From: Planctomycetales bacterium 10988
GTDB taxonomy: Bacteria > Planctomycetota > Planctomycetia > Pirellulales > Pb10988
DNA length: 64,000 nt
Direction of reading: 5' to 3'
Assembly (NCBI GenBank): GCA_009664345.1
Contig: CP043547.1
Coordinates: 1,116,001-1,180,000, forward strand
Below are positions 2,988 through 10,510 of this stretch, piece after piece (the first letter of the stretch is position 1; each line of letters starts with the position of its first letter). The notes beneath the pieces are model-generated. The model saw only the letters and a program-made list of their open reading frames with translations. It was not told the DNA's origin and did not search any database. The position numbers and the translations under genes were made by a program.

Positions 2988-3073
2988 AAGCCGAAGAGTC
3001 AGTGGTCAAAACCTATAAGAAATAGGTAAACACCTGAAAAAGGGGATTTCCAATTTACTTTTGACCACAAACT
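2988..3073. repeat. 86-bp direct repeat, copy 1 (left border of defence-like cassette)
   Basis: Aligns without gaps to 8653-8738. By hand count 68 of 86 bases match, including uninterrupted blocks GGTCAAAACC at the left and a 22-base block ending in GACCACAAACT at the right. The ends of the core are inverted (GTGGTCAAAA at 3002-3011, TTTTGACCAC at 3059-3068), so it could be a small MITE-like or attachment-type element. It sits just downstream of the methyltransferase end of the cassette. Confidence 0.85.
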
Positions 3074-3357
3074 CCAAAAAAACTCGTTACAATCAACGGA
3101 CCTTTTTAGCTTCAGCAGTAATGCGAAATCCACCCCACCCAAAGGCCAAACTATCTTAGTTTCTATCAAACATCAGAATGGGCGAGAAAGCGTGTCTTGG
3201 GATCATCCGCGGCTCCCAGAGTGAGCGATATCCCTTAGCCCTAGTGTGCAGACATGCGGGCTGGTCCATTCTTCGGTAACTTCTTCGAACCGATGGTTGC
3301 GTTATCGCTCGGTCAATTAAAAGAGAAGCGACCAGCGAAAGTGTATTCAGTGTCAGC

Positions 3358-4470
3358 CTACCGGGGTTTCAAGATAAGATCGGTTTCTCCCCGCTTTGGA
3401 ACCGAGTCAGTAAAGAGGTCCGTTTGCGTTTTCGCAGGCGAGGGCCGATCGTAATCCGAGAATCGCTTCTCCGGGAATAATTCTTGGAGCAGCTCGCAGG
3501 TGACCGACCGCGTAAATTGTCGGCCATCGGTACGAACGTAAACGGTAGCATCTTCGCTCAACAGCCTTTTTGACTTGGAAAAGACCGTCAGGAGTAGGTT
3601 GCGATATTTCTCTCGATCGCTAAATTTTCCCTTCCGAAAGTTTCCATAGGATGTAGGGCTCGCTGGGCCGCCCAGTAGCCAGAGCCTTAGCCACTGATCG
3701 TAGTGATAATTTGTTACCCCGCAGTAAGGAGGAGATGTAAAAAGTAGTTTGGCTTTTCCTGTGCCATAGGATGCCAACGTTTTCTTAAAGCCCGTCAAAC
3801 GTGTTACACTGTCTCCTAAATAGATTTCACTTCTGGAACCTCTAGGAACCCCTTTGGCATATCTCCATTCGATCTTTTTGGTCATGAACTCGATCGGATC
3901 AACTGTGGGAGGATGTTGCTGATGCTCGTCCCACCACCGAATCGCATAAGGGGGCGAGAGCGACTTGGTTTGACGCATTTGATTGGACAGAGAATCGGTC
4001 CGCTTTCCGTGAAGATGGATCAACAACAATGCCATCAGGGTCCAATCAACCTTGCTTCGACGCCAATTAAGACAATCTCTGGCTGCTAAAAGAAAGGCTC
4101 GGACCTCTAGGGTAAAGCAACGTTCAAAGAAAAAAGGTAACTGATTTGCGGATGAGGTATACCGATAGGATTTCTCACCAAGCTCTTTGAGTCTTGCAAG
4201 TAGATCGTTTTTAGGGGAAGGACGCAACTTCGCTCGGGAATAAACCCAACCTACAGGATTGATTTCGATCCCAATCCCATGACGATTATGGATAGAGGCA
4301 CTATAAATTCCCGTCCCTCGACCAGCAAAAGGATCAAGTACGACATCACCTGCTTCTGTATATTCCAAGATTACCGACTCAGCGAACTTCGAGGGAAACA
4401 TCGCATAGTAAGGGCCTACTCCAGACCAACGCCCTTCGGCAGTTCCATAACGATTGACCTCAGCCATCAT
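3358..4470 (-). CDS. DNA methyltransferase (N4-cytosine/N6-adenine type) of the HerA-NurA cassette
   Basis: A 370-residue SAM-dependent DNA methyltransferase. The SAM-binding motif I is DPFAGRGT (46-53), preceded by a motif X-like segment (MFPSKFAESVI, 24-34). The catalytic motif IV is SPPY (246-249, in LLFTSPPYCGVTNY), the form common in N4-cytosine enzymes. Motif I comes before motif IV with about 190 residues between them, the opposite order from the common beta class, so the intervening part probably contains the target-recognition region. The ATG at 4470 overlaps the nurA stop by 4 bases, which implies translational coupling. In this context it most likely marks host DNA so that the HerA-NurA pair ignores it; that role is inference. 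No separate restriction endonuclease or specificity subunit is nearby. Confidence 0.88.
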   Translation of the reverse strand: MMAEVNRYGTAEGRWSGVGPYYAMFPSKFAESVILEYTEAGDVVLDPFAGRGTGIYSASIHNRHGIGIEINPVGWVYSRAKLRPSPKNDLLARLKELGEKSYRYTSSANQLPFFFERCFTLEVRAFLLAARDCLNWRRSKVDWTLMALLLIHLHGKRTDSLSNQMRQTKSLSPPYAIRWWDEHQQHPPTVDPIEFMTKKIEWRYAKGVPRGSRSEIYLGDSVTRLTGFKKTLASYGTGKAKLLFTSPPYCGVTNYHYDQWLRLWLLGGPASPTSYGNFRKGKFSDREKYRNLLLTVFSKSKRLLSEDATVYVRTDGRQFTRSVTCELLQELFPEKRFSDYDRPSPAKTQTDLFTDSVPKRGETDLILKPR

Positions 4471-5816
4471 TGGTTCCCCATCAACGCCTTCGCCAAACGC
4501 GTGAGAACTTTCCCTCCTAAATGGAGCGGAATTGCTGCATGAGAATGGGCCGCAATCAGCGGAGATACGGCATTTTCATAACGTGAAGAGATCATCTTAT
4601 CCAACAATGAACAGATTCTAGGGAATTGGGGGTAGAGCCCGATATCGTCGGAGGCCAAGGTATCCTGCTGCTCGTTTAAAAAGGGCAGACTCGCCACGAT
4701 TCTCGACCCATTGTGTGTTTTATAAAAAAATTTTCGGCCAAAATAGGTATCTTCACCGTAGCGTTTGTCACTTTCCGAGTAAGCGATTCGCTCTTTGATA
4801 TACTTGTCTGTTAATAGCATATACGAACGATTGTTGAAACGGAGTTGGCCTGGCGTCTCGGTCCGATCCAATTCTTCAAAATGCGTGACAAAGTTGCCGG
4901 TTTTTTCGATTCCCAGGATGAGAAGGTCATTGCCGGTCTTCTCATAAACAACTTGATTTAAACGCTTTAATTCTTTGCTGATTGCGGCGCTCAACCATGC
5001 AGGGGGGCCAAAAAGTGCCAACGGTCCATCAAGGAAGAAAGCAATTCGATTCATCCGATCGAGAATCTTCTGCTCTTCAAAACATCGCAGAATGTGAATC
5101 AATAAAATTCGCTCCCAAACTTGCATCACCAACCCAAAAGCTTCTCCATTGGTTCCGACATCTCGAAAGCGTTCATGGATACGAAGGGCATCTGTCGAAA
5201 AGATCACCCTCTTGCATCCAGGACACTGGGAAGTACCAGCCGAGATAGAAAAGTTCTGTTCACAGCCATGTGACTCTTGATAGGGACAGGATTGCAACTT
5301 TGTTGTTGGCTTATGTTGTAGAAGCGTTTCATAGGTCGTTAGCAGTCTGATGTGTTTTTCATCGTCTAAAATGATGTCGTGAAAAGTATCGAAAAGTTCT
5401 TGTCGAAAAGATTCTCTCGCATCGGTTTGACGGATGGTAATCACATTGGAACCCGGCAATGCAGAATCGATCGTACTTGCCTGTTCTGTCCGGCGAAATT
5501 TCCGAGGGTCCACGGGCCTTTGCCGATCAAGCCTGGAGAGTTCTGCCAGATTCAATAATACACTTGCGACGGTGACATAACCTACCTTCGCTCCAGGATA
5601 TCCCGTTTTCACCTCGACTTCTTGATAACTCCCATCAATCGCCAGTACGAACTCAGGTAAGCCATCTGCATAAATAGGAGCATCTTCAATCTTTCCTGGG
5701 GATTTTGATTGCTGACCAGGAAAAAACTTTGAACGGCGTAATAATTTCTTGACTCGTTCGGTATCGACAATGCGTCGTACGGACTGATATCCGGCAAATT
5801 CACCTTCATAGGGCAT
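4467..5816 (-). CDS. nurA: NurA-domain nuclease with inserted zinc-ribbon-like segment
   Basis: A 449-residue protein matching the NurA 5'-3' nuclease family, the partner of HerA in DNA end resection. Visible family features: FVLAIDGSYQ (D61) for the first acidic site, AFFLDGPLALFGPPAWL (D263) for the second, and LLILGIEKTGNF (~298-309), which carries the conserved Lys. Between the first two lies an unusual insert with C177, C185, C198 and C201 (CX7C...CX2C), resembling a zinc ribbon and perhaps used for DNA or partner binding. It starts 15 bp after the herA stop, with a GGAAG ribosome binding site, and overlaps the methyltransferase start by 4 bp. The cassette context suggests the nuclease acts in defence rather than general repair. 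Confidence 0.85.
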   Translation of the reverse strand: MPYEGEFAGYQSVRRIVDTERVKKLLRRSKFFPGQQSKSPGKIEDAPIYADGLPEFVLAIDGSYQEVEVKTGYPGAKVGYVTVASVLLNLAELSRLDRQRPVDPRKFRRTEQASTIDSALPGSNVITIRQTDARESFRQELFDTFHDIILDDEKHIRLLTTYETLLQHKPTTKLQSCPYQESHGCEQNFSISAGTSQCPGCKRVIFSTDALRIHERFRDVGTNGEAFGLVMQVWERILLIHILRCFEEQKILDRMNRIAFFLDGPLALFGPPAWLSAAISKELKRLNQVVYEKTGNDLLILGIEKTGNFVTHFEELDRTETPGQLRFNNRSYMLLTDKYIKERIAYSESDKRYGEDTYFGRKFFYKTHNGSRIVASLPFLNEQQDTLASDDIGLYPQFPRICSLLDKMISSRYENAVSPLIAAHSHAAIPLHLGGKVLTRLAKALMGNQ

Positions 5817-5831
5817 GATTCAGCTTCCGTC

Positions 5832-7961
5832 TCAGGAGACTTCTATCTCAAAGCGTTGCACCTGAACCGGCACGACAAACGGATTCGAAAGTGTTTTTAC
5901 GCGAAGAAATCCTTTGTCCTGAGCACGAAGGATACTCCCTTCGAAGTCAGCAAAGTCATAAAATTTGCGTAGCTCTTTCGTCTCGTCTGTGTTGTTGAGA
6001 TGCCCGATGAACCAATTCGAGGTATTCCGCAAAATGTTTTTTTGGATGGAGCTGACTTCCTGCGTGGCATAGACCAATCCAATATTGTACTTCGCTCCTT
6101 CTTTAGCCGTGCGCACCCACATATCCTTTGTATCCAGGTCGCTAGAAGGCGGTAATATATTGTGAGCTTCTTCCACATAAACCAAAATGTCAGGAGGATG
6201 GTTTCCACTGCGAAACTGCGTTTGATTTTTCTCGAATATTTTCGTGATGACTCGATCGGCAGCGGACTTGTTTAACTCTGGGTTTCCACTTGATTGGTCA
6301 ACAATCACTAATTTTCCATCTTTCAACGCTTCATAAATATCTTCCGCATAATCACTGCTGGTGGTATGGGTGTGTTGTTCTGCAACTCGACCTACCGAGC
6401 GAGAACCGTTCGCATATGCAAACATTTCAAGGATTTTCTTGAGATCATCATCCGCCCAAGAACCAGAAGAACTTTTTTTCACATAGTCTTGATCGAACTG
6501 AGCATATCCCGAATTGTTATCCGAAATAAAATCTCTAAGAATCCCACAAGCTTGTACAACTTCTCCCCAATTTAAATTTCTCTTCCTTAAAATGGTTGCA
6601 CAAGTTTTATATTCGTTCGCCTTCTCTGAATGACTCTGATCCATCGCTTCAAGTAATGCTTTTTTAAACAAGTCTTTTACCTGTGGTTTCATATTTTCCG
6701 GCGGATGAAAACCGGCTTTATAGAGCAAAGCTCGTTGACACAGGAGCCGACGGTTATACCTCGTCATGGCTGAATAGTCATTTTCGTCGGGTTTTTCAAA
6801 GATCACATCCCGATAATTCGAAATATATTTTGTACCATCTCCAGCTAGGGAACTGTCAATGATCGACTTTCCGACCTGAATGTTTTCATCCAAATAGAAA
6901 TTGAGAAGCATTAAGTTCCTATCAGGATCATTGGGATGTCGAGAAATTCCAAAAGTCATGACATCCTTTTTTAGGCGTTGATGCTCGGAAGCAGGGCCGC
7001 AGCGCCAAACATTTTTAATAGCAGAAGGAAGATACTTTTTCGAAGCGTCCTGAACATTTTCGTTGGCATATTCCCCGTTTGGATCGAAGACCAACTGGCC
7101 AATCCGTCGAGGTTCTTCCTTCCAACGTAAAGCAAAAATCGACTTCAACATGATCTTGGTGGTGTTCGATTTACCAGTTCGCGTCATGCCGAAAAGTGCC
7201 GTCTTTTGGCCCAAAAGATCCCGTGGTGTGATCGCAAAAGGGACACTTCCAATCTTTTGAAAAGGGCGATTGGTGGAGGCATACCGGATAGTACCAATAT
7301 CTACAAGTTGAGGTGCCTCGCTTTGACCGCTCAGATTCTCTCGGTAGTTGACGATTTCTTTTAGAACGTCTCCACGCGGTTTAAAAACTTTAAGGCCTTG
7401 ATTGGGATAATAGTTGCTAATGTCAGATCCAAATGCAAGCGTATACTGGCGGTCTGCATTTTCTCCATGATCTATGATGTAAAAGGTGCCAACCACCCGA
7501 CAACGAAGACCTGCATAACTGAGCAAATGCGCGGTTGTGGAGTCCATGACTTCATGATGATCCCAATTTTTATGAACTTCACCACTAACTTGTTGGGCCG
7601 TTTCGACCCGAACTCGAAGTGCCTCGGCTGCGTTGGGCAGCTCCGCATGATCAAGTACCCGCAAGAGTATAATCGACGAGTCTTCTTTCCTCGGATCGAC
7701 CGAGGCAGTTGAGTCCTCTTCCTCACCTGCTGCTGGAACAACACGGGTTGCCAGCAAGAAAGACAATGCAGGTATCCCCCCGACATTCTTGCGTTCGTGA
7801 TCATGGACCTGAACCAAAGCCGTTTCATAACTTAAGGAGTACACTTCTCCCACATAAGCCTTTGCTTCAACTAAATGCGAAAGAATCTTACCTGCGTCAC
7901 CTAGCTCTGGAGGTAAGAACTCTTCTTTCAATTTGAAACCAATGTCACTTACGTTACTCAT
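5832..7961 (-). CDS. herA: HerA-like hexameric DNA translocase ATPase
   Basis: A 709-residue ATPase of the HerA/FtsK superfamily. An N-terminal ~200-residue barrel-like region is followed by a RecA-type core with Walker A GMTRTGKS (258-265), the adjacent [10 protein letters not shown] typical of HerA (DUF87), and a Walker B-like strand (LVYVEEAH, ~592-599) with the HerA sequence [10 protein letters not shown]. The C-terminus has the conserved [15 protein letters not shown] and a sensor/arginine-finger-like region. HerA rings thread DNA to NurA. The start is ATG 7961, with AGAGG about 7 bases upstream; an in-frame TTG at 7994 is rejected. First gene of a tight operon with nurA and a DNA methyltransferase. 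By eye the gene is AT-richer than the flanking chromosomal genes, which fits acquisition by transfer. Confidence 0.9.
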
Positions 7962-8652
7962 CTTAACCTCTGCGGCAATTGCTAACTTCACCAAATCAGA
8001 TAGAGATTGTACTTCCCCACAAGATCGCTGAATACCCTTCTAATAATTCTGTAGCAACTTTCTGAGGTAATATACACGACAGGTTGACAAGAAGCTAAAT
8101 AGTCACTCCTGAAAACGAGTTGAAACTTCACTATTTCCTTGGTTTTATGGCTTTGAAGGCGGTGAATCGCAGGCTAAACTTTGCCAGGATTTTGGACCTT
8201 AACCTTGCAAACGGATGACTACTTGACGACTTAATGACATGTGTTGAGGTTTAGTTTGTCAGGTAACTGCAAGTTTTTTCTAGATTTTTCAGAAAGGTCT
8301 TTCTTATGACTTTCAAAAGGTCCAAAATTAGGATACTAGGTTATTTAGTAGGGCCTTGGAGGATTCTTCCAGCGAAATAAATAATTTAAACCGAGAGGGA
8401 TTTTAATTGCTATTAGCAATTATCTCAAAGAATTAGCAATAAATTATAGATAGTGAGAAATTCTGAAAGATTTACACAATGTGATTCTCGAAGGCCGAGG
8501 CTCAAGCTAGTTAATCCAGCAGGTCGTTTGTTCTGAAGTCGGGCGATAACGCTGGTTGACAAAACATAATATTAGATGCTTTCCTTCGGAGCAGCGATTC
8601 CTTGAAGTAAGTCAATGGATATTATATTGCGATAATTTATCAAAGCTGCTCA
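7962..8652. other. Gene-free upstream region of the herA operon
   Basis: About 690 bp of AT-rich DNA without a convincing open reading frame. It should hold the promoter of the leftward herA operon. The only clear structure I see is a palindrome plus half-site around 8406-8440, listed separately. The right end runs into copy 2 of the 86-bp repeat. Confidence 0.5.
8406..8440. promoter_or_regulatory. Operator-like palindrome with extra half-site
   Basis: ATTGCTATTAGCAAT (8406-8420) is a perfect 7-1-7 inverted repeat. A further half-site TTAGCAAT lies at 8433-8440. The arrangement looks like binding sites for a dimeric regulator, about 450 bp upstream of herA and 390 bp upstream of the small helical protein gene. 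No regulator is known, and AT-rich DNA gives such palindromes by chance more often. Confidence 0.35.
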
Positions 8653-8738
8653 AAGCCTAAGAACCTTTGGTCAAAACCATTCGGAAACAGTTAAATACCT
8701 GGAAACGGTGACTTGTAATTTACTTTTGACCACAAACT
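8653..8738. repeat. 86-bp direct repeat, copy 2 (right border of defence-like cassette)
   Basis: Gapless partner of 2988-3073 in the same orientation, with about 79% identity by hand count. It lies upstream of herA, so the two copies bracket exactly the three-gene cassette plus its promoter region. A shortened third relative, an 18-base core with one mismatch, occurs at 36272-36289. Confidence 0.85.
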
Positions 8739-9946: not shown

Positions 9947-9975
9947 AAGGACCGCTCTCATTATTTTTAATTGTT

Positions 9976-10509
9976 CTAGAGGCTGTTGTCGACTTATGTG
10001 CTTTTCTGATTCAAGTTAGGGGATGAATATACCAACCGCCAACCTTATCCCAGTGATGTTTCCGACGAGCAGTGGGAGTTTCTTGCCTCCTATCTCTCTC
10101 CTCCGCGGGGATGTTCCGCTGGGAGATTTGCTGGCTTTGAAGGTCACCGAGGCCAACGAGCAGGAGCGGGCTCAGGTGTCGGAACTGGCCGAGCAGATGC
10201 AGCGACGGACTGGCCAAAGCGTCACGCTGGCGTACACCGATCAAGGTTACACCGGCGAGTCCGCCGCCGCTCAAGCCGCCGAGCACGGGATCGAATTGCA
10301 AGTCGTGCGGCACCCCGAAGCCAAACGTGGCTTCCTGCTGTTGCCTCGCCGTTGGGTGGTGGAACGGACGTTTGCTTGGCTGGGTCGTTCTCGTCGTCTC
10401 GCTCGTGACTACGAACGCCTAGCGAGCGCCTTGGCGAGCTGGCACTGGCTAGCCTTCGTGGCAATCCTGCTGGCAAGAATTCTCCCTGGAAGTACATAAC
10501 AGCCTCTAG
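9976..10509 (+). mobile_element. Internally deleted IS5-family element with intact ends
   Basis: About 530 bp bounded by matching inverted ends AGGCTGTT (9980-9987) and AACAGCCT (10498-10505), each flanked by CTAG. That fits the 4-bp YTAR/CTAG target preference of IS5 relatives. A normal element of this group is 800-900 bp, so the middle has been lost (see the transposase remnant). With both ends intact it could still be moved by a transposase supplied elsewhere. Confidence 0.8.
10022..10499 (+). pseudogene. IS5-family DDE transposase remnant
   Basis: Two transposase pieces lie in different frames. From about 10022 one frame reads the typical N-terminus (YPSDVSDEQWEFLASYL). After about 10110 the next frame gives the C-terminal third (LALKVTEANEQERAQV, TDQGYTGE, LLPRRWVVERTFAWLGRSRR). 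Roughly 100 codons between them are missing, including the first catalytic Asp. The second Asp (TDQG) and the Glu (VERTF) remain. The protein cannot be an active transposase. Confidence 0.88.
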
Positions 10510-10510
10510 A

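Follow-up and report, generated by a model that had tools for sequence, protein, structure and literature searches.

Three genes lie in close succession on the minus strand of a stretch of DNA from Planctomycetales bacterium 10988 (CP043547.1, 1,116,001-1,180,000, forward strand), and the whole stretch, which is 64,000 nt long, is referred to here as the window. Together spanning 3358-7994 (-), they encode a HerA-type ATPase (5832-7994 (-); 720 aa as an ORF from TTG; Pfam DUF87, E 1.1e-10), a NurA-type nuclease (4467-5816 (-); 449 aa; Pfam NurA, E 1.8e-12), and a DNA methyltransferase (3358-4470 (-); 370 aa; Pfam N6_N4_Mtase, E 9.3e-17), and all three Pfam matches exceed the gathering score. 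HerA and NurA are separated by a 15-bp gap, while NurA and the methyltransferase overlap by 4 bp. The original prediction of tightly coupled genes for HerA, NurA, and an SPPY methyltransferase is thus confirmed in its ORFs, spacing, and gene identities. As homologs align from about residue 12-15, HerA more likely starts at ATG 7961 than at TTG 7994.

The trio is accompanied by genes for an APC permease and an ECF sigma factor, a small unknown ORF, and an IS5 fragment. The latter, an IS5-type transposase fragment of 158 aa (10023-10499), bears out the claim that an IS remnant is present; it lies within a 21-bp inverted-repeat pair (9975-10510) and represents a short, internally deleted IS copy. 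Two 86-bp repeats (2988-3073 and 8653-8738, 79% identical to each other) had been described as flanking exactly this cassette. The repeats do exist, but a search of the organism's own genome (6.65 Mb) found about 41 copies, scattered and on both strands, which rules them out as attachment or transposition ends and as a cassette boundary. The aligned copies have common 10-bp inverted ends (GTGGTCAAAA/TTTTGACCAC), and the inner palindrome is AGGTAAACACCT; the element is a small palindromic or MITE-like dispersed repeat of this genome. Neighboring copies less than 6 kb apart occur four times, against 1.5 expected at random, so it is unremarkable for one pair to bracket something.

Conserved motifs of the three proteins

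Across 65 homologs, the Walker A/B residues of HerA and the TSPPY motif of the methyltransferase are invariant, and the DPF-GR motif of the latter is invariant or nearly so. In NurA, D61, G62, and G264 are invariant and D263 is nearly so; the NurA motifs D61-G62 and DGP as a whole are likewise invariant or nearly so. A zinc ribbon was considered as a further family feature of NurA and was ruled out, as the cysteines at about 177-201 are missing in many members. A methyltransferase with intact catalytic motifs is linked to a nuclease, as in restriction-modification systems generally.

In the window methyltransferase, motif I (DPFAGR) precedes motif IV (TSPPY), and the SPPY motif suggests methylation of cytosine at N4. 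Enzymes with this order of motifs are expected to have their target-recognition domain between motifs I and IV. It is here that the strongly conserved stretch LSNQMRQTK is found, and its conservation suggests that a single recognition motif is probably common to the whole methyltransferase family. The structure model of the methyltransferase (pLDDT 90.3) retrieved only general methyltransferases and Dam in Foldseek, with no clue to specificity.

Distribution and co-inheritance

Scanning GTDB genomes with the window HerA yielded 108 relatives, and the analysis covers the best 80. These 80 loci show 48-70% identity and represent about 20 or more phyla, including archaea. According to the record titles, the carriers belong to Planctomycetota, Poribacteria, Pseudomonadota, Verrucomicrobiota, Gemmatimonadota, Fermentibacterota, Nitrospirota, Omnitrophota, Armatimonadota, Cyanobacteriota, Bacteroidota, Chloroflexota, Spirochaetota, Bacillota, Deinococcota, Campylobacterota, Acidobacteriota, Lokiarchaeota, Methanoperedens, and others; because MAGs predominate, individual taxon assignments may be wrong, and cultured carriers are also present, such as Bacteroides fragilis Q1F2, Sediminibacterium roseum, Chryseobacterium oleae, and Calothrix elsteri. 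Among the best 80 of the 108 relatives, HerA is accompanied by NurA and a methyltransferase of the same kind at every locus with enough contig. The gene order is HerA-NurA-methyltransferase throughout, except at one locus where the methyltransferase comes first (L065), and at another (L041) extra sequence separates HerA from NurA. Each of the 30 carrier genomes searched has a single copy, and one locus was found on viral contigs.

No orthologue occurs in any of 96 genomes from the order to which the window genome belongs (best match 30 bits vs 1640), and the relatives include no genome closer than that. Of 392 Planctomycetota genomes, 2 matched the NurA profile (the window genome and one other), as did 15/291, 4/369, and 8/395 genomes in three other classes. 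Absence from the same order together with patchy carriers across phyla is typical of an accessory unit that moves horizontally, and judged from these sequences the trio is discrete, patchy, and horizontally spreading. Its sporadic recurrence across bacteria and archaea, with no fixed syntenic position in the 96 same-order genomes, is in keeping with the original prediction. Pairwise distances of HerA, NurA, and the methyltransferase are correlated across 65 loci (r 0.83-0.89; none of 2000 permutations above 0.25), which indicates that the three genes travel together and is not by itself proof of function.

For the genes around the trio, up to four genes per side were surveyed in 17 carriers (135 proteins), with 136 genes taken from random host-genome regions as controls. 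At E 1e-15, the flanks matched 95 PADLOC families vs 22 for the controls, a count of redundant families rather than of proteins, and the excess of defense genes is modest and qualitative. The flank matches include type III methylases, PDC-M62, and Mko proteins, as well as PIN_8 and AAA_21 domains by Pfam. The suggested co-occurrence with defense islands holds to this extent in the carriers, but not for the window copy itself: no further defense system was found among the other window genes, and the kinase-type PADLOC matches there are due to an ordinary protein kinase. A PADLOC 2.0 search with the window NurA gave no match, so defense scans may overlook the trio.

Kinship with TdpAB of Thermus

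In a profile search with HerA, TdpA ranked first (E 8.9e-22; next match 1.4e-10). In hhalign the two were matched at 99.6% over 441 columns; HerA is about 25% identical to TdpA. NurA retrieved no solved relative when the PDB was searched by sequence, and its kinship is visible only by fold: with the AlphaFold model of NurA (pLDDT 86.5), Foldseek ranked TdpB first, as did VIA-align (Z 19.9, 310 residues, 4.2 Å), in which Sulfolobus NurA reached Z 14.1. An hhalign alignment of NurA with TdpB extends end-to-end and takes in the MPYxGE, DG, and C-terminal motifs, yet it is weak (E 0.004, probability 8%). The closest solved relatives are thus TdpA for HerA, by sequence, and TdpB for NurA, by modeled structure.

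The PDB entries for TdpAB of Thermus are 8wet and 8wfd. An et al. (Nat Chem Biol 2025, cited in PMC13251355) reportedly described TdpAB as the restriction component of an antiphage system based on phosphorothioation. In Thermus-type genomes we found the order PAPS-reductase-domain (TdpC-like) gene, TdpB, TdpA, with the TdpB and TdpA genes confirmed against the PDB sequences. The window trio is similar in having an ATPase homologous to TdpA and a nuclease with the TdpB fold (though with a weak sequence profile), both encoded beside a DNA-modification gene. It differs in that the modification gene is a methyltransferase (N6_N4_Mtase), no PAPS-reductase-domain phosphorothioation gene adjoins the trio, and the genes are in another order. 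As TdpC is absent, the trio is not a member of TdpC-TdpAB as that system is defined.

HerA also partners an effector in another defense system, SIR2-HerA / DUF4297-HerA (PMC11291478). There, too, a HerA-type ATPase adjoins the effector, whereas in the window the effector is NurA rather than SIR2 or DUF4297, and a methyltransferase is added. NCBIfam models of anti-phage HerA gave 28-42 bits with the window HerA, against cut-offs of 800-850.

Modification genes beside more distant pairs

Searches with the NurA and HerA profiles reached HerA-NurA pairs more distant than the trio family, and their neighbor genes were identified with Pfam or from their resemblance to members that Pfam had named. 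At eight loci (L202-L205, L212-L215), a beta-order PF01555-type methylase lies immediately upstream of HerA. A D12 adenine methylase stands beside the pair at others (L169, L170, L201, L206, L208-L211), and methylases matching the trio-family profile occur on a haloarchaeal plasmid (L127) and at two further loci (L168, L207). In two Vibrio phages, PQ189353 (L126, 1-5751) and PQ189371 (L128, 1-5750), HerA-NurA and a D12 methylase adjoin an integrase, and the three genes are likely prophage-borne defense cargo. The two phages are near-identical and temperate, and one of the records has HerA divided between two ORFs. Partner types group by clade on the HerA tree, with six changes among five states, the exact number being uncertain because several branches are long.

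Three cyanobacterial plasmids (L125, L217, L218) carry an operon of an HTH regulator, HerA, and NurA with no adjacent methylase. For the Tolypothrix plasmid, no methylase is listed in the first 44 kb, for which the gene table is incomplete. Either the methylase is encoded elsewhere or the pair is controlled otherwise, and these pairs weigh most heavily against a restriction-modification model in the strict sense.

Proposed function and alternatives

The trio is real, widespread, and coherent, and its function is putative. In our assessment, it is probably a three-gene defense unit of the restriction-modification type, like TdpAB but with methylation as the mark. The methyltransferase would mark host DNA at a short motif, and a HerA hexamer would serve as a DNA pump carrying a NurA dimer. 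This complex would load on DNA that lacks the mark and thread it into NurA for degradation, while the methyl mark would spare host DNA. The trio would thus act as TdpAB and TdpC do, with base methylation replacing phosphorothioation. In Thermococcus, the HerA-NurA nuclease degrades both strands, and an antiviral role has been proposed for it (PMC12977600). We infer the methylated base and its motif, the formation of the complex, discrimination by the mark, and the restriction of phages; in hand are the gene identities, the conserved catalytic motifs, co-inheritance, the sporadic spread across phyla, TdpAB as nearest solved kin, and the differing modification genes beside related pairs. The restriction-modification logic of the original prediction is retained on the strength of the conserved, sporadic trio, the TdpA/TdpB kinship, and the unrelated, interchangeable modification genes of relatives, with its functional part as a proposal. 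The open literature searched describes no HerA-NurA-methyltransferase defense system, although a mention in Iyer 2004, Makarova 2011, or An 2025 is possible.

HerA-NurA has long been treated as a repair pair. We tentatively suggest, as something that could well turn out either way, that it is a general restriction chassis repeatedly paired with unrelated modification enzymes (SPPY, beta-order, and D12 adenine methylases, and phosphorothioation), in which one motor-nuclease design reads chemically different self-marks and the window trio represents the widespread methylation branch. If so, HerA-NurA would supply the restriction function in a widespread class of modification-guided defense, with TdpAB as one branch, and by comparing the methyl and phosphorothioate branches one could test how a chemical mark is sensed by a DNA pump.

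The main rival is that the trio serves a mobile element by processing and moving DNA, since an operon with the same kinds of protein is needed for DNA donation in Thermus. In ICETh1 of T. thermophilus HB27, the tdtA operon joins a NurA-like nuclease, the HerA-like ATPase TdtA, and a PF01555 methylase, and the first two are required for donation (PMC5365140). Similarly, at a Deinococcota locus, a TdpA-like HerA adjoins a methylase 28% identical to that of the window. However, ICETh1 is an integrative element with a reported role in DNA donation and carries the type IIG enzyme Tth111II, whereas no integrase, transfer genes, or type IIG enzyme were found around the window trio, and most trio homologs are on chromosomal contigs of unrelated phyla. 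We regard DNA transfer as unlikely, and the two remaining alternatives as less likely than that.

One of these is a selfish addiction module, in which HerA-NurA would be a latent toxin restrained by the methyl mark and would persist by post-segregational killing rather than through defense. Such a module would have the same anatomy as is expected of restriction-modification; the tight linkage and overlap of the genes, their sporadic distribution, and the relatives on plasmids and temperate phages all agree with it, but the cyanobacterial plasmids that carry HerA-NurA with no methylase beside it do not. Addiction and defense are inseparable by sequence and both may hold; as the explanation for the trio we find addiction improbable. 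Very improbable is end resection by a DNA-repair pair with the methylase incidental: HerA-NurA repair pairs with the same two folds are established in archaea and Deinococcus (PMC9960219), but they are described without a methyltransferase, to which the trio is strictly linked, and give a weaker fold match (NurA Z 11-14 vs 19.9 for TdpB), the trio is accessory in distribution, the window HerA and NurA are nearer to TdpA/TdpB (repair-HerA models give 33-38 bits against cut-offs of 800-970), and the Thermococcus complex is itself argued not to perform resection (PMC12977600).

Additional observations on related loci

In two Bacteroidia loci, L213 (8361-11489) and L214 (8472-11600), NurA is directly followed by a common gene for an AAA/SMC-like ATPase of about 743 aa and a 297-aa gene, and it is possible that these belong to an extended version of the system. 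On the Deferribacter megaplasmid pDF308 (L219, 5950-9748), a methyltransferase-HerA-NurA trio is present in which HerA is interrupted by an IS200/IS605 tnpA-tnpB element.
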